Source: Siphonodentalium dalli (Eukaryota > Mollusca > Scaphopoda > Gadilida > Siphonodentaliidae). From it: a DNA stretch of 64,000 nt. The translations under genes were made by a program, and so were the position numbers. Shown here piece after piece: positions 140 through 43,058 of this stretch. Location of the stretch: the NCBI GenBank assembly GCA_032622095.1, contig CP136065.1, forward strand, positions 246,511,474-246,575,473, written 5' to 3'. Below the pieces are notes generated by a model. It saw nothing but the letters and a program-made list of their open reading frames with translations, was not told the DNA's origin and did not search any database. Numbering within the stretch: position 1 is the stretch's first letter; each line of letters opens with the position of its first letter.

Positions 140-775
140 CAGCTGAATATTGGACCCTTATCTCTCAGTACCACTGTAAATCTGAATATTTGACCCTTAT
201 CTCTCAGTACCACTTTAAATCTGAATATTGGACCCTTATCTCTCAGTACCACTGTAAATCTGAATATTGGACCCTTATCTCTCAGTACCACTGTAAATCT
301 GAATATTTGACCCTTATCTCTCAGTACCACTGTAAATCTGAATATTTGACCCTTATCTCTCAGTACCACTGTAAATCTGAATATTTGACCCTTATCTCTC
401 AGTACCACTGTAAATCGGAATATTTGACCCTTATCTCTCAGTACCACTGTAAATCGGAATATTTGACCCTTATCTCTCAGTACCACTGTAAATCGGAATA
501 TTTGACCCTTATCTCTCAGTACCACTGTAAATCTGAATATTTGACCCTTATCTCTCAGTACCACTGTAAATCGGAATATTTGACCCTTATCTCTCAGTAC
601 CACTGTAAATCAGAATATTGGACCCTTATCTCTCAGTACCACTGTAAATCGGAATATTGGACCTTTATCTCTCAGTACCACTGTAAATCGGAATATTTGA
701 CCCTTATCTCTCAGTACCACTGTAAATCGGAATATTTGACCCTTATCTCTCAGTACCACTGTAAATCTGAATATT
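140..775. repeat. 39-bp tandem array, about 16 copies
   Basis: The unit is GACCCTTATCTCTCAGTACC followed by actgtaaatctgaatattt, with few variants. The unit length is divisible by three and lacks stops in several frames, so long open frames appear on both strands. They are not proteins. Each unit contains a pyrimidine run plus CAG (CCTTATCTCTCAG) resembling a splice acceptor. The array ends 15 bp before GALNT exon 1. Confidence 0.95.
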
Positions 776-790
776 TTATTAATTATACAG

Positions 791-9800: not shown

Positions 9801-12800
9801 TAATAAACAAATGATGAAAAATTGTTGGCCAATGCATTCTCTTATATATGCGAGGCGACCTATGGTCGACTCGCATATATAAGAGAATGCATTTGCACAG
9901 GTATATGGGTTGATACAAAAATTGGACCTGGCACTGAAAGGGTTGGTTAACCCATTGTTTGGTCATGAATGAAAAAATTGTTAAAGTGATGTGAAACACT
10001 CCGGTAGGGTGATCAAATAGAAACGGAGAATAATCTTGCTCAAAGTAGTTATTTTTACTAATATTATATCCAAATTGACAACACACCCCGTCATTCTAGT
10101 ATATTAATTAAATGCAGTGACTCTTGTGTGTGAATTCGTTTTCGTTAGTTTATCGCAAATAATTGCGTCCTAAATCGGGAAGTAAATATTTACAATTAAG
10201 CATAGTTCAGACAATGTTTTCTATGGAGTGGTACATGTACGGTCGATTTGCTTGAGAGTTTCGATGATGTTACTAAAATGCTCCAATTGGCATAGTGATT
10301 GAATACTAACTTATCAGATTCAACCACCTGAACAAGTCCATAATATGTCTTTAACCCAATTTTTTGGGCCAAGAACCCCTAGAGAACTTGAGCAACTCAT
10401 TCAAAGTATATTCCACAATGCTACCAATAATAGATAATTAGTAACTTGAAGATTTGTTTAAACGAATCCAGTACTTGATGATGTCCATACATCACGAGTA
10501 GTGCAGGTGAGAATGTTTGGCCGGCTTAGTCACGTTAACCCATCTTCGATGACATGACCTTTATTTTGTGTAACTCGTAGGCGAACGGACCTTTGTTCAC
10601 CTGAAATTTTCTGCACTGTAGTGGATCCTTTTCCACTTTTCCAATTTTTCTTCTATCCATACATTATTGTGGAAGACATTGTGAAATGAAGGTCAAGTAA
10701 GTAGGTAAAGAGTTAAATGAGTTTGTAATGATGATCTGCTTGTTGTAATGTCGGTAACGTTTAGCCAAAGGCATTGATTGTATTTGTGAAATCATCAAAT
10801 ATTTTAGCCTTGGTTGGCTTTTTTTACTGGTAGAGTGGAATATTTAATGGAAAACACCACAGTATGTTGATGTTGATGTGTTAATATTTTCAAATGTGTT
10901 CTTAACCCTTCCATGACTGGAGCTTCCTGATTTTTTTGCGAAAACCTTGTGTCAATGCATTCTCTTATATATGCGAGGCTCCCATAAGTCTAACAATATT
11001 TACCTTGACCTTGTAAACCAGTCCATTCTCTTATATATGCAATACTGCCTATATGAGACTCGCATATGTAAGAGAATGCACTGGCACATGATCTTTAATG
11101 CTGCACCAGCATAGGTCCTGTCATGAAAGGGTTAAACATTAACACCAAATATTCTCCTGATGAATCATGAATCAAGTATGTTTATTATTTTTTTTTAAGA
11201 TTTTCAACCATGTACATGTATATTAATGTTAAGTCTTTGAGATTTCAAATGAACCATTATGTTGAGCCACTCCTCTTCGTACGTTTTGCTGAGTTATCTT
11301 TCGTGGGTTATGGTATGGTATGAAATGACCTTCGCCACTTCAGCCTTCATATTTTCAATCGTGCAATAGCAAAGGGGCTTATGGAACACATTCATTGATT
11401 TACAGCTCTGGAAGTTGCAGAATACTTGACACTACAGATATTCTCAAAATAAAATGTCCCCTCCAATGAGGTTTTCAAATATTTAATACTCAGTGAGAAC
11501 ATCAACATAACAAATTGATCAAGCCTTGAAATAGTATGTCTGTCATTTGCAGAATAAGGTCCCCAGAAGGTGAAATTAGAGACGCTACCCCACACAGCAG
11601 GGTAGCATCACTAAATTCACCCTCTGTGGACCTCATTCTGTTTAGGCCTCATCTTCTGGGAGGTGTCTACATTGTATAGTCTCAAATTAACATTGTTGCT
11701 ATTACTTTTTCCCTTCTGTTCAGTTTCAATATACTCTAATTTGCCAAAGATAAAATGCATAATTTAGGTGACTAGTGGGTGAAATCGCCAATTTCAACTG
11801 GGAAACTGAAATCTTATCCTAGGTCTCCCATAGCAGTTGAGTCCTCAGCAGAATGAGGTCCCCAGAGGGTGAATTTGGTGATGCCAGCCCACCATGCGAG
11901 ATAGCATCACTAAATTCACCCTTTGGTGACCTCATTCTGCAAATGACAGACACACTATTTCAAGACTTGGCATTGATGGAGAGCTTAAAACACGTTAAAG
12001 GGACTCAGACAATTTTGAGAATGTGAAATGTTTAGGCATATATTTTTATGTTATTATTTTTTATATTCTATAGGTCCGGGAGAACGTGGAACTTCAGTCA
12101 TTGTGCCACCTGATGAGGAGAAGCCGAAACAGGAACTCTACAAAGTGAACGGTTTCAATGCATACGGCAGTGATAAGATCTCCCTGAATCGCTCACTCAA
12201 AGATATCAGGAACCCTTTGTAAGTCTATATAAAGTGAACCCTTCAATGCATACGCCAGCGATATGATCTCGCTCACTCACTCAAAGATATCAGGAACCCT
12301 CTGTAAGTCTATATAAAGTGAACCCTTCAATGCATACGGCAGCGATAAGATCTCCCTGAATCGCTCACTCAAAGATATCAGGAACCCTCTGTACTCTAGT
12401 GATCCGAATAATAGTAGGGGTCGGAATAATAGTAGGGGGTGGAAAATTTGCCAAATTTTAATAATAGTAGGGGTCGGAATAATAGTAGGGGGTGGAAATG
12501 TCAATGAAAATAGAGATCATTGAAGAACACTGATTTAATTATCAAACAAAAACTTATAATAAACACTCCTCGACCCAGCACGGACAACGTCTGGTTCTTG
12601 CAGAACCTTTTCAATGTCATTGATTTGAACGGAGAACACTGCGTCAACACTTTTATACGAATTTTCAGTTCCAGCACAAGGCTCGAAAAATCTAACCAAC
12701 TACTCAATTGTGTTCTAATTAAAGAAACTTTCAAACGTAAGCCCCAGATGTTGATTAACTTCTTAGTTAATAACGCGTCAATTGTAAAAAAAAAACACAG

Positions 12801-15800
12801 ACATAACGCGTTGTCACCTTTGTTCGCCTCACTGAACGATAAACAATACCCGCAGAGGGGGGTCTGTCTATTGCAATAGGGTCGCACGAATTGCAAAATA
12901 GCGACACGTGCGAGGATGGAGTTACTTCCCATGGATCAAATCATTGATTATATTGCGATGCCAGACGGTTGCGCGAATTCTTTGAACGTATTCCGCTTCA
13001 TGCATGCCATTTGATTAAAAACAACGAATAATGCGATCATTCATGGAGTATGGGTGATCAAAATTAAATAATCGTAGGGGCTTGAATAAGAATCGTAGGG
13101 GGTGGATTTTTTCTCAAAAATTAACAATCGTACGGGTACGGTTATTCGGATCACTAGAGTAAGTCAATATAAAGTGAACCCTTCGATGCATACGCCATCG
13201 ATGTGATCTCACTCGCTCACTCAAAGATATCAAAAACCCTCTGTAAGTCTATATAAAGTGAACCCTTCAATGCATACGCCAGCGATATGATCTCGCTCGC
13301 TCACTCAAAGATATCAGGAACCATCTTTAAGTCTATATAAAGTACAACCCTTCAATGAATACGCCAGCGATATGATCTCGCTCACTCACTCAAAGATATC
13401 AGGAACCCTCTGTAAGTCTATATAAAGTGCACCCTTCAATGCATACGCCAGCGATATTATCTCGCTCGCTCACTCAAAGATATCAGGAACCCTCTGTAAG
13501 TCTATATAAAGTGAACCCTTCAATGAATACGCCAGCGATATGATCTCGCTCGCTCACTCAAAGATATCAGAAACCCTCTGTAAGTCTGTATAAAGTGAAC
13601 CCTTTCAATGCGTACACCAGATGATGATATTTCACTCGTTTGGTTACTCTAAGATGTAAGAAATGCACCATCACAAGGTTTTTCAAAGAAATATAAAATG
13701 GTGAAATTAACATTTTCCTTTTTTTTTGGTTCCATTCTGCCCATGTTTCAAATGGGGGTATTCCAGCACCCGTGGTTAAACCTCCTATAAATTATGTTGG
13801 GATTTGATACATACATTTGATCGTAGGGTCCTGCAAATATATTCCATATTTGATTCATTATTCGATTCAGTCCCTTTATTTGATTAAAATTCAGTTAGAA
13901 AATATTGGTTTGAAAATGAACTAACATCCCAAAGGTGTTCTTCATCCATCTCTTTTGACCATTTGATGATGGGAACAGGCTGGTGCAGCATTAAAGACCA
14001 TGTGCCAGTGCATGGGTGACTCGCATATATAAGAGAATGGATGCACTACTCTGCAGTAAGATCTCTACCAACGTTGAGCTAAATAACCAACTTTTTTTGC
14101 TTTTGGGATTGAGAAAAATGATAAATATCCACATTGACACTCTAACTGTTAACTATAGACTAGCCTTCTGGAGAAAATTGAAAAAATAAATTGAGGCAGG
14201 CAAGACAATCTCAGCCAGGCAGGGTATCGGAAACAAAGAGGTTTTTTTTGTGCCTTAGTCATCTCCAATAAATTTCAACAAATATTCCAAATCAACCAAG
14301 ATAAAATTAAACCTGTGAAACAAGGCAATTAAAGAAGATTTCTTGCTTTGTCACTTCTTTGAATATATTTGAATCAACATTTTTTTCACAAACATTAATG
14401 TGTATTAGAGCAGGATTAATTGTTTGCACGAACTTAACCCTTTACCCAACAAAACGGCCAAAAACGCCCAAATAAAGCTTCAACAGCCTAAAATATCTTC
14501 CGTCTGTCTCAATAACACCATACAAATATGGATATCATTGGAACCGGTTCATTGACCACATTGTGATGGTTACAGTTATGCCCTGTGCCAATGCATTCTC
14601 TTATATATGCGAGTCGACCATAGGTAGTCTCGCATATATAAGAGAATGTATTGGCCTAAAAAAAATGTTTTTTTAACACTTTTTACCATTTTTTCTTACA
14701 TTCTTTAACAATTTTATAATTTTTTCTTACATTTATAATATTTTTATACATTCTTTGACAATTTTATCATTTTTAATATGTGTTAAGCCAATGCATTCTC
14801 TTATATATGCGAGGTGACCTATGGTCGACTCGCATATATAAGAGAATGCATTGGCACAGGGCCGTTCTGTTGGGTAAAGGGTTAATTGATGTCACCCACA
14901 ATATCTAACAATGTCATATACAAACCATCGAAATAATAATTATTATACATTTTGTTTTTTTTCACTTGTTTTTTTAGATGCAAAGATAAGAAATATTACA
15001 ATAGACTACCTAATGCGAGTGTTATAGTTCCATTCCACAATGAACACTGGACGACTCTACTCAGGACTGCATCCAGCGTTGTTAACAGATCTCCCAAAAA
15101 CCTCCTACACGAAGTTATCTTAGCAGATGATTTCAGCACAAAAGGTATGCATTAACCATTTACCCAACAGAAGGGCCCTGTGCCAATGCATTATCTTATA
15201 TATGCGAGTCGACCATAGGTCGCCTCGCATATATAAGAGAATGCATTGGCTTAACACATTAAAAATTATAAAATTGTTAAAGAATGTAAGAAAAAATGGT
15301 AAAAAGTGTTAAAAAAAGTTTTTTTTTTAGGCCAATGCATTCTCTTATATATGCGAGGCGACCTATGGTCGACTCGCATATATAAGAGAATGCATTGGCA
15401 CAGGGCATAACTGTAACTATCACAATGTGGTCAATGAGCCGGTTCCAATGATATCCATATTTGTATGGTTCTATTGAGACAGACCGAAGATATTTTAGGC
15501 TGTTGAAGCTTTATTTGGCCGGTTTTGGCCGGTTTGTTGGGTAAAGGGTTAATGTAGTACTTATAAACATTGCGATATCGTAGATTGTTTTCTATAATGA
15601 ATTGATTTATTGATTGATTGAGGGCTACACGAAGTTATCTTAGCAGATGATTTCAGCACAAAAGGTATGCATTAAATCAGAATTGTATCCTTACATAAAA
15701 TCAAATAAAAGCAGACAATTAATTTGTCATTTATTCATGACTGTTTATTACTGAATATTAAAGTGATATGAAACACTCCGGTAGGGTGATCAAATAGAAA

Positions 15801-18800
15801 TTGAGAATAATCTTGCTCAAAGTAGTTATTTTTTACGAATATTAATCCAAATTGACAATACATATCGTCATGCTTATGTAGTAATTAAATGCAATGACTC
15901 TCGATGGCGAAATCATTCGTGTTAGTTTGTCGCTGATATTTGCGTCCCGAATTGATATGTAAATATTGACAGTTGAGCGTAGTTCAGACGATGTTTTCTA
16001 GGAAGTGGTATGGTCGATTTCTCTGAAATTTTCGACGATGTTAGTTAAATGCTGCATTCCCCATGTTGACATAGAGCCTGGGTACTAACTTATCAATTTC
16101 ACGCACCCGAATAAGTCCATAATATGTCTTTAAACATATGAACAAGGACGCTGGAAGCACCAAAGGGCAAGGGGGGCAAACCAGTCAGGAGGGCACTTTT
16201 CATATACCCACTGGACTCTAATGGGCCAGGGCAAGGGGGCAAATGCCCCTGCATTCCCCCCTTCCCCGGCATCCCTGCATATGAAAATAGGAAATGTTAT
16301 CACTGGTTTCAGAACCACGTCGATCTCTGCTTATTCGAAGTTGGTTCGCTTAATTTTAACACAGGATGCTCCGGAATTGAGAAATTTTTTAATGAAAATT
16401 GGATAAAAAATCAGAAGGTGTAAAATTCCTGAGTTAATTCAAAATGCTGAATATGTTCGGAAACAGAACAAACACGTGCTCATGTATCTATTTTATACAA
16501 TCGAATGAGGGGTAAAGTATACTCGTAGTATGGGATCATAACTTCTGATGATGGGTGACATATATTTAACAGAATTCGGTTGTATTTGGTTGTCTTAAAT
16601 CGGTCCCTTCGAATATGACTCTTTATTTATCGGTCCACATTTGTATATGAATTCCGTCCTATAACTGGATGCAATTCATAGGAATGTTAACAATTATCAT
16701 CATGTGCCGACTGGTAGCATGTTGCTGTCAGTCAAACATTATTTACAAGAACAGCAACGTCCCATCTTTTTTTCGGTTTTAAGGTTTAATTGTGCCTTGG
16801 TTGAGTTGGAATATTTAACAAACTGGTTTGAGAACTCAAAATAGTGCTTTTGTAATGTTAAACTTGGAACTCAGGGTGAATCGGCCCTGGAATTATATAA
16901 TCACATCCCTGGTCTTGCAAATAAATACAAATAAAAACACCCGCCCTCATTGATTCAGAAAGAAATATTGTCTGAAACTAAAATTATCTTTTTTGTTTGG
17001 TCTGAGGGATAACTGTGTGGAGAAGATTAAAAATGTCACTATCAGTAACTGTAGTTTTTAGTAAGGTACAAAATTTAAAAGAATGTGTCTGGGAAAACTT
17101 AATTTTGGAGCTAATTAGTGGGTATTTGCCAACGAATATTTGCAATTGACTGTGCTGAAAAATACTTCATGTTTATCCCTACTCTTATTGAGAATTACAA
17201 AATAATTATCACTTTTGAACCCACTAACCAGCTTAACTGCTTTTACTACTTATAATAGTTCTTACTTTTTTATATTGTGTGAGTTTTTAGCAGTTTCAAT
17301 TGTGACATTCTTTTTCAGAATTTTTGAAAAAGGAGTTGGAGGATTACTTGAAAGAGCACTTCTCTAATGTCAAGGTCGTAAGAGCAGAAAAACGAGAAGG
17401 ACTCATTAGAACTCGGTTACTTGGAGCGAAGCACGCGACGGGAGAAGTCCTTATATTCCTGGACGCACATTGTGAAGCTAACACTAATTGGCTCCCACCA
17501 CTCTTAGGTGAGACTCAATTCTATTTCATGTTTCATAAATCCAGCTCCCATCACTCTCAGGTGAGACTCAGTTCTATTTCATGTTTCATAAATCCAGCTC
17601 CCATCACTCTCAGGTGAGACTGAATTCTATTTCATGTTTCATAAATCCAGCTCCCATCACTCTCAGGTGAGACTCAATTCTATTTCATGTTTCATAAATC
17701 CAGCTCCCATCACTCTCAGGTGAGACTCAATTCTATTTCATGTTTCATAAATCCAGCTCCCATCACTCTCAGGTGAGACTCAATTCTATTTCATGTTTCA
17801 TAAATCCAGCTCCCATCACTCTCAGGTGAGACTGAATTCTATTTCATGTTTCATAAATCCAGCTCCCATCACTCTCAGGTGAGACTGAATTCTATTTCAT
17901 GTTTCATAAATCCAGCTCCCATCACTCTCAGGTGAGACTCAATTCTATTTCATGTTTCATAAATCCAGCTCCCATCACTCTCAGGTGAGACTCAATTCTA
18001 TTTCATGTTTCATAAATCCAGCTCCCATCACTCTCAGGTGAGACTGAATTCTATTTCATGTTTCATAAATCCAGCTCCCATCACTCTCAGGTGAGACTGA
18101 ATTCTATTTCATGTTTCATAAATCCAGCTCCCATCACTCTCAGGTGAGACTGAATTCTATTTCATGTTTCATAAATCCAGCTCCCATCACTCTCAGGTGA
18201 GACTGAATTCTATTTCATGTTTCATAAATCCAGCTCCCATCACTCTCAGGTGAGACTCAATTCTATTTCATGTTCCGTAAATCCAAACTGTTATTAGTTA
18301 TTAGTATCGAAGAACACTTTATCCGTTTCTGTAATGTCAATATTTCAGATTTTATGAAAACTCAGTACCTCGGAATTTTACTAAAAAATGTTTGCAGTTT
18401 CAATTGTGACATTCTTTTTCAGAATTTTAGAAAAAGGAGTCTAATCATCTCATGATTTCAAAATTTATTCTCGTCGTAAAGTCACAAAATGGTTGAAAAT
18501 AACTGTTACCGAGAATATTTTATTAAAAATCTCCCTGACGAACTCCAAAAAAAATTGCAATGCACATGGCAAATCAACAGAGACAAGAGAGAATTCCAAG
18601 AAAGTGAGGGCAGATACTAACAATGCAAACTGTTGTAGAGGGTATAATAAAAGCAGAAATAAATCAGTCTGTCTGCGTCTGTGTATCCAACTTTGTCCAA
18701 ACTTGTATTCCTACATTTTCTTGTCATTTTATATGTTAATACTTGATAGAGATGTTTTCCATCATGGGAACCTGTGCACCAGTATTAACGATTTTTAGTG

Positions 18801-21800
18801 GAGTTATCCCCATTTTTTTTACTTAGAAATGTTTTGCAACATACTTAATTTTATCCGAAATATTATTTCTTCATTTCTTGGTTAATTGTTTTAAAATTTA
18901 GCATAAGATATTTGACCACCTGCCTCTGTCTTACTTTTATAATGAAGTTAACCTGTGCACCTGAATCATTTTACTCCGTTCTAAGAAATATAATTCTCAT
19001 CATTGATACACATAATTATTGCCTTATTCTGAAAGATATCGAAGTTGACATCGCTAAAAGCCATGTGTTTGCTTCTGCCTAGCTAGTTAAGTTGCTATAT
19101 GTTGCTATCCCAATTTATACTGATCATGTAAACCAGATATTAGCTGGCAAAAGCAGGGGTGGGGTCATTGTAATTTGTAATTGACTGTAATTAATTACTT
19201 TTTCTCAAATAGTTGAGAGTAATTTGTAATTGGACCATTTCTCAATTACAAGTAATTGAAAGTAATTAATTACTTTGACAAATAGCATGTAATTCGATTA
19301 CTTTTTCAATTACATTCAAAGAGGACATAATAAACTTTTGTACATTTATTGGTGAGGTTTCATCATGCAGTTGTTCATCAAAATATTAAAAAGTATTTGT
19401 AATTGTAATTTATTACATTGGATAAGTAATTGACACATCCCTGGCTGGGCAAAAGTTGATTTCCTCATTCTCAGTTTCAAATAGTTCTTAATGTATGTAA
19501 GTATACTGTTAATTTTCAGATCCAATTGCTCAGAACCATAAGACTGTTGTATGTCCATTTATTGATGTCATCGATTATGAGACCTTCGAGTTGCGTGGAC
19601 AAGATGAAGGTGCCAGGGGTTCGTTCGATTGGGAGTTCTTCTACAAGCGTTTACCTCTCACCAAAGAGGATCTTAAACATCCAGCTGAACCGTTCAAGTA
19701 AGACTGCAGAATTATAAATATACAAGCCTTGAAATAGGGTGTCTGTCATTTGCAGAATGAGGTCCCCAGAGGGTGAAATTAGTGATGCTATCCCGCATAG
19801 TGGGCTAGCATCACCAAATTCACCCTCTGGGGACCTCATTCTGCTTACACCTCAGCAGAATGAGGTTCCCAGAGGGTGAATTTGGTGATGCTAGCCCACT
19901 ATGCGGGGTAGCATCACTAAATTCACCCTCTGGGGACCTCATTCTGCAAATGACACACCCTATTTCAAGGCTTGTAAATATATAGTACCCAGATGCAGCA
20001 AGTCTGAGTTTAGTGTGCCTGTCATTTGCAGAATGAGGTCCCCAGAGGGTAAATTTTTATGCTATCCCGCATAGTGGGCTAGCATCACTAAATTCACCCT
20101 CAGGGTACCTCATTCTGCTAAGGCCTCATCTTCTCTGGACAGTTTCTTTATTATCAAATTTCTATAAAACTTCTTCACATAGATTCTATTTCTGTTTTAG
20201 TTAGTTTCTCTATATCCCCAAATTGGCCGACGACACATTGCATAATCGAGGTTCCCAATGGGTGTACATCACAATATTCACCATTTGGGAACTTCAATCT
20301 AAGTCTATGTCTCCCATAGCAGATGAGGCCATGCAGAATGAGGTTCCAGGAGAGTAAATTTGGTGATGCTAGCCCGCTATGCGGGATAGCGTTACTAAAT
20401 TCACCATCTGGGGACTTCATTCTGCAAATGACAGGCACACTAAACTCAGACTTGAGCTGTAGGGCATACTCTTGTGTGCCAAATAGAAGTTTAGGTTAAG
20501 GGCAGAATATAAGTACATGGTGGAAATTTATGAAAAAATAAATAGTGCCGGGCGGAATAGAAGTACCACATGAAAGTGTATTATCAATTCTCACACAAGG
20601 CAATAATTATTTTCATGATTTTAGTATTAAACTATAACATGGTGTTAAGGACGAAGAAAATTAAATGTCTGGTTGGATTTACAAGTCAGAAAAAATAAGG
20701 TTTGTGAATTGGCTTGAAATTTAATATTGTTAACTAATGAGGGAGTCGTTTCTATGCTTGTGATTAGGTGGGGGGAGTCATATTGTATTGAGCTAACATA
20801 TTATAATCAACCAACATGAAAAATGTCTTATAATGTATTTATATATAAAACAGAAATCATGATCATTTGAATGTTATAGTTGTTTATTTTTACCTTTATG
20901 TTCTTGATTTTGAAAGATTCCTGTTATAAACAGGGATGCAATGTTTTTTTTTTGGAGGGATCTTGGAACCCTCGTCGTTTCATTTTAATGTAATATATAT
21001 CTGATTTTGTATCATGTTATAATCAACCCACATGTAAAATGTCTTGTAATGTATTACTAGTAATATAACAAACAGAAATCATGATCATTTTAATGTAATA
21101 TATATCTGATTTTATAGGAGTCCTGTGATGGCCGGAGGATTGTTCGCCATTCATCGGGATTGGTTCTGGGACCTCGGAGGTTACGATCCTGGCCTTGACA
21201 TCTGGGGTGGAGAACAATATGAACTGTCATTCAAGGTGAGTTTGCAGGTTTTGTTTGAATGAGATGAAGTAATACGTACTTAAGAGGGTCACAAAGACTC
21301 ATATTGCCTGCAAAAGATTCAAATAATCTGAAGCACTTACTTATTTTGTGTATGTACAAGTGTAGTGCACCTTTATACTCTCTATGAGGGCTAATCACGG
21401 TCAATTATTTAAAGCCCTGTCATATGATAAATGCAAGCCTTGAAATAGTGTGCCTGTCATTTGCAGAATGAGGTCCCCAGAGGGTGAATTTAGTGATGCT
21501 ACCACGCATAGCGGGCTAACATCACCAAATTCACCCTCTGGGGACCTCATTCTGCTTACATCTCAGCAGAATGAGGTCTCCAGAGGGTGAATTTGGTGAT
21601 GCTAGCCCGCTATGCAGGGTAGCATCACTAAATTCACCCTCTGGGGACCTCATTCTGCAAATGACAGGCACACTATTTCAAGGCTTGGATAAATGATTCA
21701 TGTGAATCCGACAAATTAGAAGACATCAGGTGCAATGGGGACCTTACTTCCTTTGGAAATGTTCAGATAATAAGTTCAACAAGCACCCATAAGTCATTTG

Positions 21801-24800
21801 TTGAAATTATTATCTGAACATTTCACACCAATGAATATGAATCATTCTGCTCTTGTATTATCTGTTTTTATGTGTGTCGTCTGCTTTTGTTACCTGAACA
21901 CCCTCCATATGAATAATAGACCATTTCAATGTATACTTTTATAACTGATGGGAGAATCTATTCAGTATATAAAGGATTAATGAACCCAAGCCTTAGTTTA
22001 GTGTACCTGTCATTTGAAGAATGAGGTCCCCCAGAGGGTGAATTTGGTGACGCCATCCCGCATCGCAGGCTAGCATCATCAAATTCACCCTCTGGGGACC
22101 TCATTCTGTATAACCTCATCTGCTATGGGAGACAGACTCAGATTGAAGTTCCCAAATAGTGAATATTGTGATGTACACCCATTGGGAAACTCGATTATGC
22201 AATTTGATAATAAAGAAACTGTCCAGAGAAGATGAGGCCTTAGCAGAATGAGGTCCTCAGAGAGTGAATTTAGTGAATTCACCCTCTGGGGACCTCATTC
22301 TGAACATGACAGGCACACTATACTTAGGCTTGAATGTACCATGATATTTACCTGACCTTTGACCTTTTTATTTCAGCTCTGGCAGTGTGGCGGAATGATG
22401 GTAGATTCACCATGCTCAAGAGTGGGACATATCTACAGAAAATTTGCTCCGTTCCCAAATCCTGGTATTGGAGATTTTGTTGGCAAGGTAACTGAACTCA
22501 AACTAACATATAAAATTACCTCAACCGACTGTAATCCAAGTTTTACAACATACTGTTTAGTAAAGCTTGTCAATCAATTGTAAACCCAGTATTACAATAC
22601 ACTGTTTAGGAAAGCTTGTCATATTGTTGTCCATTTTATACGTCGGTTTTTTAAAAACTTTTTTGGTTTCCAGATGATCACTTTAGATAGTCTCAACTGA
22701 ATGGAATGAAATTTGGTATGTGGGTTTACTAACACAAAATATCAAGGTCAGATTCAACCCAGATCACATTATATCACATTATATCACATTATGTCACATA
22801 TCACATTATATCTTCACATTATCACATTATGTCACATATCACATTATATCTTCACATTATCACATTATGTCACATATCACATTATATCACATTATCACAT
22901 CATATCACATTATATCTTCACATTATCACATTATGTCACATATCACATTATATCACATTATCACATCATATCACATAATATCTTCACATTATCACATTAT
23001 GTCACATTAGATCACATTATATAAGGATTAACTGTCATGTGGACTGTTTTTATGGAGATGTAACGGTGAGGTAAGTGGACATAACTTGTGTAAAACCCGA
23101 AGGGTTTTACATACAAGTTATGTCCACTTACCTCACCGTTATATCTCCATAAAAATAGTCCACATGACAGTTAATCCTTATATTTATATACATTTAGCGA
23201 AAAAGCCGCTTTTGTAAATATATTTAAATAGAAAAGTGTATCGTGACAAGATCAGCCCAAAATACCCAATAGCACCCTTGGCAAAAGTTAATAGGAACAA
23301 TTTCTCTTCATGTTGAAACCCGATGATGTATTAAGTCAATCCTGCGCGAGTCAAAATGCGCCCAAAGCATTACGCGTTCGTCTTTCCAAACCTAATGACG
23401 TATCGATGGTGTTATTAGCTTGGTGTTATGAGGCGTTACGCATTCACCGAGAAATAACTGCAACTAGCCACATGGGCGCCGACCAATCAGAATGCTGGAT
23501 TTAGTGATGACAACACTTAGTGTGTAAATATATCACATTATCACATCATATCACATTATATCACATTATATACAACGTTAGGCCTGACCAATTTAATAAC
23601 TTGAATTACGAACGCAGAGAATGAAAACCTGTAGATGCAGGAGGGGGGAAAAAACCAAATACGGGAATATCCACATTTGTTATAGTAAAAGCAAGGAAAC
23701 ATTACTTAAACAGTAAAATAACTTTATGTGGTATGTGATAATAATGTAAATAATAATAATAATACAGTGAATTTAACATTAAAGAAACAAAGAGAGCACA
23801 AAAACTGACATTTGCATCATTTGTATTACAGTCTACGTATTCCTGCACTAGTTCATGATTAATTTAATAGCATACATGTTAAGGATCTCTCATGGCATAT
23901 TTTAAAGTTATAAAGTTCCAAAGCATTAAACATGAAAGCTTGTATTAAACAAGCTATATATTAATGTGTTAAACTTATCAGTGTTGTCATTTTAATAACT
24001 TGAATGTTCTCAGGACATGTTTTCCTGCTGTTAAAACACTCTCCGGTGAGAAACTGAACTGCTTCTCGACAAATAAGTCAATTAGATCGTTGAACAAAGT
24101 ATAGTCATTCCTCATTTTTGTGGAATCAACTTTGTCAGGATAGCATTTTGTGAGTCTGTTGGACATCAGGAAACTAAAAGCATTCCCTTTCTGTTGTATC
24201 TCGAGTTGTGTTACAAAAATAACTATGTATTTCCCTCCGAAATCTGACACAACATGCAGTGGAGTATCGTTTTTGAGTTCATGACCTTCATCTTGAGGAG
24301 ATGTTTTCGAGACGATTCGGTCTATCTTGAAGTTCTCATCGACCTCACTAAATAACACGGACACTGTGTTCTCTAGATCTAGCTTCAATAGTCTCTTTTT
24401 GACAACAGTCCCCGACTTTACGACTTCTACGCTGAAATAACTCATTCATGCCCTCGAGTGTCCATACTAACGAAACCGAAACTTAACGGATGTGAACGAG
24501 TTATCTTTGTTCGAAATGTTTAAAGACCAGGAGCTAGCCGGAAACGGAATGTCGCTCATACTGGAATCCGGAAAATTAAAAATCTCGGCAAACTAAAACG
24601 CAGAAATGGACCGCACTTGTGTACCGAAACCCGGGAAAAAAATTAATTGCGTTTGGAATTTCCGTTTTTTTTTTTTTATTTTCTCGGAAATTGTTATCGG
24701 CGCGTTCGTAATTCAAGTCATTAAATTGGTGTCGCCTTATCTTTATTTTATACCATTTGAAAGAGGAAGTCCAAAACATTGCAATATCAACTTTTCTGGT

Positions 24801-27800
24801 TGAATAAACTGTGAAATAGTTTTTTTTTGTCGTGGTACCGACATGTGTTCTGAGTCATTCTGTGCTTAATTGAAATTTGTAATTTGTAATAATCCGCATT
24901 TGTCTCTCTGTTGGGGAATGTATGGGGACATCAGGGCATCCATGTGTGTGTCCGCCCCATTCCTTGTCCTGACGTTAACTCCAGTTCAAATTATCTGATC
25001 GAAACAAAACTTGGTATGAGAAATAACCATCACATTATTGACCCGCCATATCAAATCCAGTCGGAAGTCGGGATTTTTTTACCCTGTGCCAATGCATTCT
25101 CTTATATATGCGAGTCGACCATAGGTCGCCTCACATATATAAGAGAATGCATTGGCCTAACTAATCATTTTTTTTAAATAAATGTTTCTTACAATTTTTA
25201 GGACATAAAATAAAAAACATCCATTACCCTGCAGGGAGCCCCACACATATATAGAAGCATATAGAAGAGTGTCGTCTGCTCATGTTTGTCTGGGGCTCTG
25301 TATGGGTGAAATTATAAAATTGTTAAAGAAATCAGGCTTTAAAACTTACTTTGAAATATATTATTTTGCAACTGTTCATATTCTAAAGCTATGTCGCTAT
25401 AATATTGTAGAACTACAGAAGAGTGGCAGAGGTGTGGATGGACGAATATGGAGAGTTTCTGTACAAGAGACGGCCTCAGTACCGAAGTATCGACCCCGGG
25501 GATATCTCTGCACAGAAAGCTGTCAGAACGAGGCTTAAGTGTAAATCGTTCAAATGGTTCATCGAAGAGGTGGCTTTTGATCAGAAGGATTACTACCCAC
25601 CAATAGAACCCCCACCTCTGGCGGCCGGTGAAGTGAGTATGGTATAAACAGGGATGTAGTGGTGGGGGAGGTTTATCCAGTAGAACCCCTACCTCTGGTG
25701 GCCAGTGAAGTGAGTATGGTATAAACAGGGATGTAGTGATGTGGGCGTGGGGAGGTTTATACAGTAGAATCCATACCTGGTGGCCGGTGAAGTGAGTATT
25801 ATATAGAAGAACCCCCACCTCTGGTGGGCGGTGAAGTGAGTATGGTATAAACAGGGATGTAATGATGGGGGGGGGGCATGGGGGAGGTTTATACAGTAGA
25901 ACCCCTACCCCCGGTGGTTGTTGATGTGAATATAGCATAAACAGGGATATAGAAAGGGATGTTCAAAGAAATCTATTTTTGACCCTTTTATACTTTTATA
26001 CTAAATACTCATTGACGAGTAGTTACCTTAGGAAATGTTCAGATAATAAGTTCAACAAACGACCATATGTCATAGGTTGTTTTATTGAACTTATTATCTG
26101 AACATTTCCCACAAAAGGATATGAATGATTCTGCACTTGTATTATATTTTCATCATACTGTCATCTGCTAATTTTTTTCTGTACATTCCTCCAAACAAAT
26201 AAATAATATACCTTTCCATTCTATTATAGCTGATGGAAGAATCCATTTAGTATAGGAAGGGTTAATATATAATTTCCTTTCTCATTTGTTCAATTCGAGT
26301 GTGGTAATAATAGTAAAAACATGATCCTATCAGACATTAAAGGTACCCAATCTGATTCGATGGTCCCCATATCATCAGATTCCAACAACAACAACATTTT
26401 TGAAACGCTGCTTCAATTATGAGAATCGAGTAATTGCCCAAAAATAATGGTAACCACAGTCAACTATAGTATAAAATTGCCCAAAACCTGTTATTTATCA
26501 ACATTTTTTCAATGAAATTTTGCCGGTTTATCAAATATCTGACACAAAATCGCTACCTGATTTTAGAGTTATCCATCTTCATCCGCAATTTGGTCCGAGA
26601 CCGTGTTCTCATTGATATCTGATCGATATCTGATCACTCTGAACTTTGATGGGTGGGTTCCTCGACTCAAATCAAAATTTTCAAATTACCCCTGAAGCCA
26701 AGGAAATTGTAATTTGCGAGCGATAATTTGGATTATGCATTTTTAAGGTCTCACTAGCAGCCCTCCAGAAAGGATTAATAGATCTGATATAACAATGACA
26801 TGATTTTGGAGGGCGTTTAGGTGTATTAACGTCCCGACAGAAATGATTAACAGCCCAACAGCTTATAGTCTTGGGCCGTTAACCCTTCGATGACTGGAGC
26901 TTCTTGAAATGTTGCGAAACCCCTGTGCCAATGCATTCTCTTATATATGTGAGTCTCAAATAGTGAGCCTCGCATGTATAAGAGAATGCATTGACCTAAC
27001 AATATTTACATTGATCTTGTAAGTTGTAAGCGAGTAAATTCTATGTGAGGCTTCCTTTGGGAGACTTGCATATATAAGATAATGCACTGGCACAGGATCT
27101 TTATTGCTGCACCAGCACAGCTCCAGTCACGAAAGGGTTAATACGGTGAAGGCCTGTTAATAATTTCTGGATGGCTGTTGATATACCGACAGCATCATAT
27201 TATTACTATTATTACCAAATTCTCTGTTGCTCTGTTCAAACATGAGGGACGTGGTAAGCAATATTTGGAAGCAAACTTTTTTGGAACAACAAACACTTTA
27301 TTGATTTATCCTCTTTTTCATACCAAATGAATCAATTGATGTCACATGACATGTTGAGCATTATCATTGCTTAACCGTTTCATGATGGGAGCTGCGCTGG
27401 TACAGCATTAAAGATCCTGTGCCAGTGCATTCTCTTATATATGCGAGTTTCCCCATAGGGAGACTCGCATATATAAGAGAATGCTCTGGCTTACAAGATC
27501 AAGTTAAATATTGTGAGGCCATTGCATTCTCTTATATATGCGAGGTCCCCTTTGAGCGATTCACATATATGTCAAAGAGAATTCATTGGCACGGGGTTTA
27601 CACAAAAATTCAGGAAGCTCCAGTCATGAAAGGGTTAACTCCCGTAATTTGATGAGAATGAGTAGATTGACACACAGAAGTGACTCATAACCGGCTCCTT
27701 GACCACATTGTGATAGTTACAGTTATACCCTGTGCCAATGCATTCTCTTATATATGCGAGTCGACCATAGGTCGCCTCGCATATATAAGAGAATGCATTG

Positions 27801-30800
27801 GCCTAAAAAAAATCTTTTTAATGTGTTAAGCCAATGCATTCTCTTATATATGCGAGGCGACCTATGGTCGACTCGCATATATAAGAGAAAGTATTGGCAC
27901 AGGGCCCTTCTGTTGGGTAAAGGGTTAAGCCTCTCATTTATTTTTCAGTTCAGAAACAAAGCTGCGAACTTGTGCATGGATACAAGGTTCAAGAAAATGA
28001 ACGAAAGATTCCAGCTTGAACAGTGCATCACAGACGGCAAAGGTGCCAGTGGAGAACAGGTAATTGTGACATAGCCTTATCAGAACCCACTTGTAATGAT
28101 GCTCATGTTTTGTCTGTCGTCTATTTTTTCCCTTCAATATTCTGCTGTTTGATACAATTTACCATGTAGTCCATTCCAAACATAAACAGCAATAAATTTG
28201 ATTTTTCACATCTCTTTTTTTTTTATCCAACAGCACTTATTTTTTTTAAATAATTGAATTCAAATAAAAAGACTTTATAATTATAGCTATATATTACCAT
28301 CTATTACTATTTATTACTATTTATTGCTATGAATTTGAAATTTACTGTTGAACAGGGTCTTTTTTGGCCAGAAAAATTTCTTTTGGTAATTTTTTCAGCC
28401 ATTTCTGAATTTGTATGGCCATATTTTTTATCACAAACTTCGGCCAATTTGAAAAACCAAAATATATAATGATAAAATAAATGAAATAAAAACAAATCAA
28501 AGCATTTCCGGAAAACTGGATCCTGATTTTTCTTTAACATGGAACAATAGTTATCCATCTTAGACTATTCCTGATATGGTAAAATTTAAAGAACATTTTT
28601 GTCTTAAATATGTGCGAAAAATTAAAAAAATTTGGAAAATTATCATGAATTTTTTTTCAGAGTATTTAAAGCCTTTAACTCACTGAGTGCCGACTCTCAT
28701 TCGAATGACATGACAAAAGTACAAGATTACTCATAGTAGGCACTCAACGTGTTAAATCCATATTTTATGTATTTTTGATTTAAACATATTTTTATTAGTA
28801 TATAAATGCATAAATAATACATAACAAATAAGGGATTGGAGGACAAGTTCTTTGAAACTTAGATGGACCTCCGCTCCCTACAGATCATACATGAAACATA
28901 AATATAACAATTTATTTTGGATTTATATCAGGTTTTGGTAGGGCGGGTAGAATATATATATTGTGAGAATAAGATATTACATGGGGTGTTAATTATTATA
29001 AATCAGTGGTGTGGTGGGGTAATAAGTATAATTATACATACCTATGACTAGTATGCCAACTGGCAGCATATATATGTATAAGGTGGGGAAAGCGTTAGTT
29101 GGTGTGTTTGGGGAATGGTAGATAGAAAGGGGTCGTTTGAGTAAGTAACAGAACAGGATATTGGGGCAGCAAGTACATTTATGGTACAGAGTTAAGATTT
29201 TATGTATTTATCAACATATGTTATCCATCCTTCCAAATTATGTTTAAATGAGCCATGTCCATATGAGTGTTCTTACTTTTCATTCTGTAGGAACTTGAGT
29301 TGACATGGCATAAGGATATACGACCAAAGAAAAGGACCATCTGCATTGATGTATCACAGTCTATTATGAAAGCGCCAGTCATACTCTTCAACTGTCACGG
29401 CATGAAAGGAAACCAAAGATTCAAGTATAATCCAGTGAGTATTTCATCTAATAGAGGGTCCCATTCAGGTCCTATGGGTCCAGTCAGGTCCGGGTGGTAA
29501 TTAGTCTGTGATGAAAACACCAGTCATCCTTCAATGTCATGGCATGAAAGGAAACCAAAGATTCAAGTATAATCCAGTGAGTATTTCATCTAATGGAGGG
29601 TCCCATTCAGGTCCTATGGGTCCAGTCAGGTCCGGGTGGTAATTAGTATGTGATGAAAACACCAGTCATCCTTTAACTGTCACGGCATGAAAGGAAAGAT
29701 TCAAGTATAATTCTGTGAGTATCTCATCTGATGGAAGGTCCCATTCAGGTCTGGGTGGGTCCGGGTGGGTCCAGGTGATAATTAGTCTATTATGAAAGCA
29801 CCAGTCATCCTCTTCAACTGTCACAGCATGAAAGGAAACCAAAGATTCAAGTATAATCCTGTGAGTATCTCATCTGATGGAGGGTCCCATTCAGGTCCGG
29901 GTGGGTCCAGGTGGTAATTAGTCTATTATGAAAACACCAGTCATCCTCTTCAACTGTCACCTCATGAAAGGAAACCAATGATTCAAGAATAATTCAATGA
30001 ATATCTCATCTTAGTGTAGAGTCCCATTCAGGTCCGGGTGGGTCCAATCAGGTCCGGGTGGTAATCAGTCTGATGAAGCTCTCATAATTATGTTGATGAA
30101 AGGAAATTAGAGATTAAAATATAATCTGGTGAGTGTCTCATCTTAGTGGAGGGTCCCATTCAGGCGCCGGTGGGTCCGGGTCAGACCTGTGTTATAATAA
30201 GTCCCATGATGAAAGTTCCCGTAATTCTGTTCAGCTGTCATGGCATGAAAGGAAATTAGAGATTCAAATATAATCTTGTGAGTGTCTCGTCTTAGTGGAG
30301 GGTCTGGGTAAAGGGTCCAGGTGGGTCCGGGTCAGATGGTAATTAACCGTGATGAAAGCTCCTGTAATCCTCTTCAAATGTCATGGTATGAAATGAAATC
30401 ATAGATTCAAATAGTATCTAATCTTAATGGAAGGTCTAAGTAGATGGTCCAGGTGGGTCCTCAGGTCCCTGGAGTTTATTCTCAATTTCTTGCCTTACCT
30501 GTACCCTCCATATCAAGCCTTGATATAGTGTGTCTGTCATTTGCAGAATGAGGTCCCCCCCAGAGGGTGAATTTAGTGACACTACCCTGCACAGTGGGCT
30601 AGCATCACTAAGTTCACCCTCTGGGGACCTCATTCTGCTTAGGCCTCATCTTCTAGAAAGTATCTTTAGTCTAAAATTAACATTGTTTTTAGTTCCTTTT
30701 TCCCTTCTGTTCGTGCTGTTTCTATATCCCCTAATTTGCAGAAGATAAAATGCATAATCAAGGTGACTAATTGGGTGAACATCACCAACTTCAACTGGGG

Positions 30801-32347: not shown

Positions 32348-32489
32348 ACTCTCAAACATCGACCACGGTGACGTCTAAACTCTCAAACAATCAGCATTGC
32401 TAAAGAGCAACATCATTACTAATATTTGCAACTGAAGCTGATAGGGGTCAATGTCATAATGATCTAAACATAGATAAATGCCGCATATA
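32348..32489 (+). other. Probable start of GALNT 3' UTR
   Basis: Follows the TAA of exon 11. The first ~45 bp contain an imperfect duplication of 'accatggtgacatctaaact', that is, of the stop-codon region itself. Possible AATAAA-type signals occur at about 32524 and 32753, inside the next array; neither can be assigned. Confidence 0.4.
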
Positions 32490-39800: not shown

Positions 39801-39889
39801 ATTGTAGGAAATTCTATCAAATTAAATTTGGAGCCAAGTGATTTTGTTTGGTGCTAGAATCTTCGAAATCAGCATCAAATATATGAGGA

Positions 39890-42727
39890 GGCCTTGTCGA
39901 AAATGTCCAGAAAGATAAATTAAATATATGACGAGACACTGTCTAAAAATGTCCAGAAAGATAAATTAAATATATGACGAGACACTGTGTAAAAATGTCC
40001 AGAAAGATAAATTAAATATATGACGAGACACTGTGTAAAAATGTCCAGAAAGATAAATTAAATATATGACGAGACACTGTGTAAAAATGTCCAGAAAGAT
40101 AAATTAAATATATGACGAGACACTGTCTAAAAATGTCCAGAAAGATAAATTAAATATATGACGAGACACTGTCTAAAAATGTCCAGAAAGATAAATTAAA
40201 TATATGACGAGACACTGTCTAAAAATGTCCAGAAAGATAAATTAAATATATGACGAGACACTGTCTAAAAATGTCCAGAAAGATAAATTAAATATATGAC
40301 GAGACACTGTCTAAAAATGTCCAGAAAGATAAATTAAATATATGACGAGACACTGTGTAAAAATGTCCAGAAAGATAAATTAAATATATGACGAGACACT
40401 GTGTAAAAATGTCCAGAAAGATAAATTAAATATATGACGAGACACTGTGTAAAAATGTCCAGAAAGATAAATTAAATATATGACGAGACACTGTCTAAAA
40501 ATGTCCAGAAAGATAAATTAAATATATGACGAGACACTGTCTAAAAATGTCCAGAAAGATAAATTAAATATATGACGAGACACTGTGTAAAAATGTCCAG
40601 AAAGATAAATTAAATATATGACGAGACACTGTCTAAAAATGTCCAGTAAGATACATTAAATATATGACGAGACACTGTCTAAAAATGTCCAGAAAGATAA
40701 ATTAAATATATGACGAGACACTGTCTAAAAATGTCCAGAAAGATAAATTAAATATATGACGAGACACTGTGTAAAAATGTCCAGAAAGATAAATTAAATA
40801 TATGACGAGACACTGTCTAAAAATGTCCAGTAAGATACATTAAATATATGACGAGACACTGTCTAAAAATGTCCAGAAAGATAAATTAAATATATGACGA
40901 GACACTGTCTAAAAATGTCCAGAAAGATAAATTAAATATATGACGAGACACTGTGTAAAAATGTCCCGAAAGATACATTAAATATATGACGAGACACTGT
41001 CTAAAAATGTCCAGAAAGATAAATTAAATATATGACGAGACACTGTCTAAAAATGTCCCGAAAGATACATTAAATATATGACGAGACACTGTCTAAAAAT
41101 GTCCAGAAAGATAAATTAAATATATGACGAGACACTATCTAAAAATGTCCAGAAAGATAAATTAAATATATGACGAGACACTGTGTAAAAATGTCCCGAA
41201 AGATACATTAAATATATGACGAGACACTGTCTAAAAATGTCCAGAAAGATAAATTAAATATATGACGAGACACTGTCTAAAAATGTCCAGAAAGATAAAT
41301 TAAATATATGACGAGACACTGTCTAAAAATGTCCAGAAAGATAAATTAAATATATGACGAGACACTGTGTAAAAATGTCCCGAAAGATACATTAAATATA
41401 TGACGAGACACTGTCTAAAAATGTCCAGAAAGATAAATTAAATATATGACGAGACACTGTCTAAAAATGTCCCGAAAGATAAATTAAATATATGACGAGA
41501 CACTGTCTAAAAATGTCCCGAAAGATAAATTAAATATATGACGAGACACTGTCTAAAAATGTCCCGAAAGATAAATTAAATATATGACGAGACACTGTCT
41601 AAAAATGTCCCGAAAGATAAATTAAATATATGACGAGACACTGTCTAAAAATGTCCCGAAAGATAAATTAAATATATGACGAGACACTGTCTAAAAATGT
41701 CCCGAAAGATAAATTAAATATATGACGAGACACTGTCTAAAAATGTCCAGAAAGATAAATTAAATATATGACGAGACACTGTCTAAAAATGTCCAGAAAG
41801 ATAAATTAAATATATGACGAGACACTGTCTAAAAATGTCCAGAAAGATAAATTAAATATATGACGAGACACTGTCTAAAAATGTCCAGAAAGATACATTA
41901 AATATATGACGAGACACTGTCTGAAAATGTCCCGAAAGATAAATTAAATATATAACGAGACACTGTCTAAAAATGTCCAGAAAGATAAATTAAATATATG
42001 ACGAGACACTGTCTAAAAATGTCCAGAAAGATAAATTAAATATATGACGAGACACTGTCTAAAAATGTCCAGAAAGATAAATTAAATATATGACGAGACA
42101 CTGTCTAAAAATGTCCCGAAAGATAAATTAAATATATGACGAGACACTGTCTAAAAATGTCCAGAAAGATAAATTAAATATATGACGAGACACTGTCTAA
42201 AAATGTCCAGTAAGATAAATTAAATATATGACGAGACACTGTCTAAAAATGTCCAGAAAGATAAATTAAATATATGACGAGACACTGTCTAAAAATGTCC
42301 AGAAAGATAAATTAAATATATGACGAGACACTGTCTAAAAATGTCCAGAAAGATAAATTAAATATATGACGAGACACTGTCTAAAAATGTCCAGAAAGAT
42401 ACATTAAATATATGACGAGACACTGTCTGAAAATGTCCCGAAAGATAAATTAAATATATAACGAGACACTGTCTAAAAATGTCCAGAAAGATAAATTAAA
42501 TATATGACGAGACACTGTCTAAAAATGTCCAGAAAGATAAATTAAATATATGACGAGACACTGTCTAAAAATGTCCAGAAAGATAAATTAAATATATGAC
42601 GAGACACTGTCTAAAAATGTCCCGAAAGATAAATTAAATATATGACGAGACACTGTCTAAAAATGTCCAGAAAGATAAATTAAATATATGACGAGACACT
42701 GTCTAAAAATGTCCCGAAAGATACATT
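39890..42727. repeat. 46-bp satellite-like array, about 61 copies
   Basis: Unit ATATGACGAGACACTGTCTA followed by aaaatgtccagaaagataaa and ttaaat. Variants are GTG/GTC, CCAG/CCCG and AAATT/ACATT. A rare variant pair (CTGAAAATGTCCCG followed by ATATAACGAG) occurs at 41921 and 42427, 506 bp apart, which is eleven units, indicating local higher-order duplication. No coding frame. Confidence 0.97.
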
Positions 42728-43058
42728 AATGGACAATGATGGAGATTGGTAGTTTCCTCTAATGCTTTTACCAAAGTTTACAATCATATGATTTTTCACG
42801 ATTTGTGGAGTGATCTTTTGTTCGAAAACTGTGGTAAGAATATTAGAGAAAACTACCAAGAAAATTGGCTCAAATGGGGTATTATAGCTGGTCATATGCT
42901 CGTCACTATAAAATTATTTTGCCATCCTGGTGCCATGGGGGTCTATTTGAAATAATCTTTTGCCTGATATTTTTTTCAAAATCCGCAATTTTTATTTTGT
43001 GTACTCATCAACTTGAGACTAATTAATTCACGGCAGAATCTCTGTCTCTGGTATCGTT

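Follow-up and report, generated by a model that had tools for sequence, protein, structure and literature searches.

Mirage-like tandem arrays across exon/donor boundaries of a GALNT10-type gene in the scaphopod Siphonodentalium dalli

The window analyzed here, a stretch of 64,000 nucleotides from contig CP136065.1 of Siphonodentalium dalli, carries a gene of the GALNT10 type, the 5' end of which lies beyond the window. The assignment follows from the best PDB chain (2d7i, E 3e-177, exons 2-10 compared) and from profile matches showing that both GALNT domains are present in the product, the family-2 glycosyltransferase (PF00535, 3.6e-34) and the ricin-type lectin (PF00652, 2e-24). Exon 1 was placed by eye, and the total of ten donors (E1-E10) leans partly on it. 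No copy of exon 1 was found in the 39-bp array that lies next to its acceptor. The features are collected in Table 1.

Table 1. Exons, tandem arrays, copies and insertions in the window (positions are those of the window)
Feature	Position	Strand	Remarks
39-bp array, 16 copies	143..776	+	ends just 5' of the exon 1 acceptor
Exon 2	12074..12218	+	donor GT 12219; homology and splice context
Exon 2 array	12142..13620	+	84-89 bp unit, 77 exon and 12 intron bases; 7 downstream copies
Insertion splitting exon 2 array, 766 bp	12394..13159	.	inverted ends CTCTAGTGATCCG
Exon 3	14978..15144	+	donor GT 15145; homology and splice context
Insertion separating the two exon 3 copies	15156..15548	.	TTAA flanks, inverted ends
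Exon 3 single copy	15625..15675	+	51 bp identical; last 40 exon bases and donor
Exon 4	17319..17507	+	donor GT 17508; homology
Exon 4 array	17491..18285	+	53-bp unit, 15 copies, 98% matches
Copy of exon 4 acceptor and 17-18 exon bases	18391..18440	+	source 17287-17336; 96%
Exon 8	25411..25632	+	donor GT 25633; homology and splice context
Exon 8 array	25600..25952	+	~77-bp unit; 3-4 copies downstream
Exon 10	29291..29434	+	donor GT 29435; homology
Exon 10 array	29358..30413	+	~142-bp unit; 5-6 downstream copies, 79-93% identity to first
Copy of internal exon 11 piece, 46 bp	31169..31214	+	in intron 10, upstream of exon 11; 85%
Exon 11 (last)	32177..32347	+	by eye; stop codon inside; lectin domain match extends into it
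Tandem duplication over stop codon, 31 bp	32330..32389	+	

An earlier, sequence-only reading had described five of the ten donors (exons 2, 3, 4, 8 and 10) as having the exon end and its GT tandemly repeated on the 3' side, and all five arrays were confirmed. Its figures needed some correction: of the downstream copies claimed (7, 1, 14, 4 and 7), the first three numbers stood and the last two became 3-4 and 5-6, while the units, given as 84, 51, 53, ~70-80 and ~140 bp, were found to be 84-89, 51 (within a unit of ~120 bp), 53, ~77 and ~142 bp. The donor GT was retained in six of the seven downstream copies of exon 2, and CAG/GTGAGA stood at the donor in the 14 copies of exon 4. The insertion in the exon 2 array is probably flanked by TA, and its ends suggest the type of element. 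The 51-bp copy of exon 3 belongs to the ~120-bp unit, which is interrupted by a TTAA-flanked insertion that we take, from these flanks, to be a putative piggyBac-like element. An independent origin of the five arrays, also proposed earlier, is supported by unit comparison and genome searches: in whole-genome DNA searches, in which very common words were skipped, the units of exons 4 and 10 matched only their own arrays, and the units of exons 2, 3 and 8 were compared within the window. Absent from the earlier reading were the copy of the exon 4 acceptor, the copied piece of exon 11 and the duplication over the stop codon.

The frequency of such arrays was estimated from 200 other coding exons, selected manually among listed matches prior to any view of their sequence. 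Most were matches lacking both stops and long open frames, and they comprised 80 of the 123 kinesin, 40 of the 53 Cpn60, 40 of the 92 SNF, 20 of the 85 myosin and 20 of the 60 GALNT matches. Exons of the studied gene itself, which appeared among the GALNT matches, were left out. Exon ends in this sample are the ends of profile or protein matches rather than annotated boundaries. For the tests, related exons among the first 180 were pooled, which gave 150 clusters, and the 20 GALNT-paralog exons were kept unmerged, for 170 in total. Donor-spanning arrays were present at 18 of the 200 exons and acceptor-spanning arrays at eight, so that the sampled donor base rate is near 9%, about 1 in 11, and the studied gene is a local extreme. 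At the rate of 17/180, five of ten donors would be hit by chance with p 0.0013 and four of ten with p 0.010, values that are uncorrected for a gene singled out by the earlier reading. Specificity to the GALNT family was rejected, with a donor-spanning array in only one of the 20 paralog exons.

Predictions made beforehand for the second set of exons were donor arrays at ~10%, far fewer at acceptors, and an edge density raised several-fold. At a score of at least 150, donors and acceptors were equally affected (4/80 each; five and five at a score of at least 100); the expectation for acceptors was not borne out, and donors carried arrays at roughly half the predicted rate. No clear excess of acceptor arrays over expectation was found in the sample (eight loci or six clusters vs. 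4.7 expected; p 0.11 and 0.34, respectively). Related exons differed in whether they carried an array. Among six related myosin exons, two had a donor array (L164 and L166) and the others were single-copy (L165, L167, L168 and L169); an acceptor array was present at L176 and none at the related L175, and array lengths differed among the related exons L036-L038. Arrays at donors (n=18) resembled those within introns (n=49), with identities of 91.9% and 91.0%, median copy numbers of 2.85 and 2.4, and periods of 61.5 and 53.

Structures of this type are known from amphioxus as mirages, the original mirage paper being, reportedly, that of Canestro et al. 2002. In the available parts of two reports (PMC3087553, PMC3902484), mirages are minisatellite-like tandem duplications across 5' and 3' exon/intron boundaries, found in the amphioxus genes Adh3, globin, PGBD5 and TnC, which leave splicing undisturbed, regular splicing having been seen by RT-PCR. 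As far as those parts describe them, they share with the present arrays units that cross both boundaries, measure from tens to ~160 bp and contain AG/GT, as well as homogenization within an array. Mirages are further characterized by length instability between haplotypes; in the present genome, related exons (L036-L038) differ in array length. Here, units span an exon/intron boundary at five exons of the window and at 18 donors and eight acceptors of the sampled 200, 73 of the 86 downstream copies were counted as retaining a GT (77 of 86 after a by-eye correction of a one-base offset at exon 10), and acceptors are involved both in the sample, as at L176, and in the copied exon 4 acceptor. Unlike in amphioxus, five lie in a single gene, 18 of 200 sampled donors are affected, and the genome comprises 2.23 Gb in 9 contigs. 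The amphioxus genome is smaller, at about 0.5 Gb, and divided into a larger number of chromosomes. Searches with the profiles PF14830 and PF00379, made with no positive control, found no match in the present genome.

Two other known phenomena are comparable in part. The portions seen of a study on human segmental-duplication genes (PMC2812944), which worked from recent paralogs and transcripts, describe variable internal tandem repeats at exon-intron boundaries with a possible effect on splicing and the formation of novel introns; tandem repeats at boundaries are common to both cases, whereas new introns are reported only there. Intron gain through tandem duplication of AGGT segments is the reported subject of two further papers (PMC4974935, PMC2891723), and there too splice signals are duplicated, but a new intron is made, while the arrays here lie inside introns. 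Boundary-spanning units were not found in the accessible parts of a paper on an earthworm metallothionein gene, which has intron minisatellites (PMC12783039). The present arrays are filed under the known mirages, with a rough frequency estimate added.

The explanation that we consider likely is that the arrays are mirage-type minisatellites, the outcome of harmless repeat growth rather than of a special process at splice sites. Ordinary short tandem duplications, with units of about 20-190 bp and perhaps made by fill-in of staggered breaks, would by chance take in an exon end and its donor, and would then expand and homogenize as minisatellites. Such arrays would survive because the first copy is an intact exon with its own donor; if this first (exon-defined) donor stays in use, all later copies become intron. 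Where a duplication spans an acceptor, the last copy would be used, and where it spans a stop codon, the first stop. About 1 in 11 sampled donors would carry an array because the genome is rich in minisatellites, and the gene with five would represent the tail of the distribution. In support of this explanation, such arrays recur at other exons while some related exons are free of them, arrays overlap donors at nearly the rate seen in introns by plain coverage, donor and intron arrays are alike in identity, copy number and period, decoy donors decay in step with their surroundings and would be harmful in regular use, a stop codon has been duplicated as well, and the amphioxus mirages are a published precedent.

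Counting against it are excesses of array starts at exon ends, which could instead mean that exon ends or donors are hotspots of tandem duplication, through transcription-linked breaks, R-loops or nucleosome-bound exons, with donor arrays born more often than intron arrays. The earlier claim that arrays touch donors far more often than random placement would suggest, and the test of overlap against array density proposed with it, gave a divided result. By plain coverage there was no clear excess: 17 of 180 donor points were covered, and among 180 intron points the mean was 15.6 on the upstream side and 10.5 on the downstream side, the latter falling to 6.7 of 180 when donor-spanning arrays were left out; 50-mers at the donor had a downstream copy in 20 of 200 cases, no more often than those at +50, +100 and +150 (20, 26 and 20 of 200). 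Under stricter nulls, which ask that the donor lie inside the first copy of an array, donors were in excess, by 2.3- to about 5-fold. Left edges of arrays fell within the last 8-80 bp of the exon in 14 clusters and within the following 400 bp, which amounted to 5.7-fold more sequence, in 21 (ratio 3.8, p 3e-4); 14 donor clusters compared with 2.9-4.1 expected from intron first units (p about 1e-4); and an alignment-based count gave 14 clusters at donors, while the 12 intron positions compared averaged 6.1 (p 0.004), although one control position (+240) reached 13. The effect was weaker in held-out exons: sets 2 and 3 jointly gave an edge ratio of 2.4 (p 0.10) and, by alignment, five clusters vs. 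1.7, the edge ratio being 3.2 (p 0.069) for set 2 alone and 1.1 for the GALNT paralogs alone.

The excess at edges and in first copies is greater than expected from chance and tolerance, so that exon ends may duplicate more often. The suggestion that some property of 5' splice sites triggers duplication is weakly supported by the first-copy excess; against it stand the coverage result and the fact that acceptors and a stop codon were duplicated too. Further against a hotspot, array density had no clear GC trend, CpG o/e was alike in exon and flank (0.77 and 0.74), and donors were located anywhere in the unit, as judged by eye and not computed. On the whole we regard a hotspot as unlikely. Other candidates were tried and rejected. 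Exon GC as the cause of the edge excess does not agree with the GC content of intron arrays, which at 0.355 does not exceed the 0.371 of their flanks (n=49), or with array density being highest in the lowest-GC bin; exon-targeted methylation is unsupported by the CpG values; and greater longevity, in which arrays would stay recognizable for longer through their conserved exon copy, does not fit the equal identity of donor and intron arrays.

Whether the decoy donors are tolerated or selected had been posed as a choice, and tolerance is the better fit. Within the copies, donor letters diverge by 6.0%, the exon part by 7.2% and the intron part by 6.1%, a rough comparison given that copies are homogenized, and all 29 decoys identified by their motif would, if used, change the frame or bring in a stop, so that their regular use would be harmful. 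Selection, for example for additional U1 binding sites or backup donors, would agree with the retention of GT in most copies, but donor letters are no better conserved than the remainder, and no difference in donor strength at array loci was found (p 0.70) in a test that is rough, as the automatic finder located a donor GT at 16 of these 18 loci and chose wrongly at L164 and L166; we hold selection to be very improbable.

Two further explanations are more improbable still. Assemblers err readily on tandem arrays, but an assembly artefact is scarcely credible given the scattered substitutions among copies, the two arrays interrupted by insertions, and the similar arrays at other loci, including the related exons of unequal array length. 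Equally far-fetched would be intermediates of intron gain or recursive splicing, in which AG/GT units would turn into new exons or serve as ratchet points. TCTCAG/GTGAG is indeed present in the 14 copies of exon 4, with the juxtaposed AG/GT motif of recursive splice sites, and a mirage-to-intron model is proposed for amphioxus globins in the portion seen of one report (PMC3087553), but exon boundaries here come from homology alone, and any unit spliced as an exon would be hypothetical.

It is conceivable, if on balance doubtful, that mirages are a genome-scale feature of minisatellite-rich animals beyond lancelets, with about 1 in 11 coding-exon donors trailed by near-copies that include nearby exon sequence, exon edges two to five times as prone to duplication as the intron beside them, and a strict upstream-donor rule holding against up to 14 decoys. 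The count of 18 in 200 donors supplies a rough number for a phenomenon that the amphioxus literature, in the parts available, reports gene by gene. The arrays also offer natural experiments on 5' splice-site choice, in which exons are trailed by 1 to 14 donor copies with 17 to 77 exon-end bases and any motif-found decoy, if used, would spoil the message. For gene annotators they are a warning that exon-like copies beside real exons may be decoys.

Eleven exons of a GALNT10-type gene lie within the first 32 kb of the window, which covers C5:246511474-246575473 in a genome of 2.23 Gb and nine contigs. Homology placed exons 2-10, with GALNT10 as the best PDB match (E 3e-177), exons 1 and 11 were assigned by eye from open frames, and the lectin domain extends into exon 11. 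Ten donors fall inside the window (counting that of the eye-assigned exon 1), and at five of them, those of exons 2, 3, 4, 8 and 10, the exon end and donor are recopied downstream in the same orientation, as the sequence-only reading had reported; its copy counts for the five arrays agreed with a re-count to within two. Later insertions split the arrays of exons 2 and 3, and genome DNA searches, in which very common words were skipped, returned no matches elsewhere to the units of exons 4 and 10. Duplications that had been overlooked are those of an acceptor, a piece of exon 11 and the stop codon, which sits within a 31-bp tandem duplication, so donors are not the sole functional edge to have been copied.

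Features in and around the GALNT10-type gene (window positions) and on contig C4 of the same genome
Feature	Position	Remarks
Insertion in exon 2 array		inverted ends, probably TA-flanked
Insertion in exon 3 array		TTAA-flanked
Copy of exon 4 acceptor	18391-18440	includes 17-18 exon bases
Copy of exon 11 piece		46 bp, upstream of exon 11
Palindromic element, GCAGAATGAGGTCCCCAGAGGGTGAA...	e.g. 19752-19947, 21463-21658, 30949-31139	several times in gene
152-aa ORF	23987-24445, minus strand	M start, within intron 7; Pfam search at 0.01 gave no match
46-bp minisatellite	39877-42729	about 62 copies, 97% matches; longest array listed in window; outside the gene's exons
Myosin exon L176	C4:291689342-291689611	acceptor array upstream
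Row of many myosin-head exon matches	C4, about 274.2-275.5 Mb	scores nearly equal

The boundary-spanning arrays are the same structure as the mirages of amphioxus, described in globin genes and Adh3 as tandem repeats across 5' and 3' boundaries, with units of 10-160 bp, many carrying AG/GT signals, with unstable lengths, with regular splicing undisturbed as judged by RT-PCR, and with a mechanism called unclear (PMC3087553). They are also reported in amphioxus PGBD5 and TnC (PMC3902484), and repeats at boundaries in human genes (PMC2812944); a limited search of the literature, mostly of listings, returned no genome-wide estimate of mirage frequency.

Within the arrays, GT is kept in 77 of 86 downstream copies (73 before correction of a one-base offset at the exon 10 end; by eye, 4/5 copies at exon 10). 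The donor letters diverge by 6.0%, a rate similar to the 7.2% and 6.1% in the rest of the copies, which are homogenised within each array and hence non-independent. All 29 decoy donors found by motif (six at exon 2, one at exon 3, 14 at exon 4, three at exon 8, five at exon 10) would, if used, shift the frame or meet a stop first. Given such decay and such consequences, the simplest reading is that the first donor is spliced and the remaining copies would be silent intron.

Whether the pattern extends across the genome was addressed with 200 coding-exon matches, each with 550 bases per side, hand-picked from search listings with the sequence still unseen. The sample covers four gene families and GALNT paralogs (80 kinesin, 40 Cpn60, 40 SNF transporter, 20 myosin and 20 GALNT-paralog exons), with exon ends based on homology. 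Tandem Repeats Finder (score at least 100, period at least 20) placed arrays over the donor in 18 and over the acceptor in eight, and a donor-like GT lay within the repeated unit in all 14 of the 18 donor loci inspected by eye. The window's gene (5/10) exceeds the sampled 17/180 with p 0.0013, uncorrected for the gene having been singled out beforehand.

The excess at donors hinges on the null chosen, and the claim that the arrays touch donors far more than random placement would suggest was only partly upheld. Measured against array density, the refuting criterion that the sequence-only reading had itself set, there was no clear excess: donors were covered in 17/180, against means of 15.6/180 at upstream and 10.5/180 at downstream intron positions (6.7/180 downstream with donor-spanning arrays excluded), and a 50-mer over the donor had a downstream copy in 20/200, compared with 20, 26 and 20 at +50, +100 and +150, controls that take in later copies of donor arrays. 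First-copy nulls, however, gave an excess, and are fairer because a donor array survives only with the exon as first copy. With related exons merged, 14 donor clusters stood against 2.9-4.1 expected from intron first units (p about 1e-4); an alignment-based count also gave 14 clusters, where 12 control positions averaged 6.1 (range 1 to 13, p 0.004); 14 array left edges fell in the exons' last 8-80 bases versus 21 in the next ~400 bases (ratio 3.8, p 3e-4). The ratio was 5.7 in the first 100 exons, where the effect was first suggested, and 2.4 (p 0.10) in the held-out 100, with five clusters versus 1.7 by alignment. For acceptors it was 1.6 (p 0.21) in the whole sample, and of the predictions set before the held-out exons were scored, the one on acceptors failed. 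A modest excess at exon edges is possible but not established.

Identity, copy number and period are alike in donor and intron arrays, so nothing sets the donor arrays apart as a class of their own. Among related exons, L164 and L166 have a two-copy donor array and L165, L167, L168 and L169 a single copy; the acceptor array of L176 consists of repeated CAG/GTCTGGTCGATGCCGG units, and the related L175 is without it. Three two-copy donor arrays hold 1.9 copies (L047, L074, L086) and two others 2.1 (the related L164 and L166), leaving little room for bases shared at the break. Fill-in of staggered breaks is one mechanism of duplication, and as a source of these arrays would be consistent with such scant sharing.

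The palindromic element of the table is possibly of foldback or MITE type, and the row of myosin-head matches on C4 may represent a local expansion of a myosin gene.
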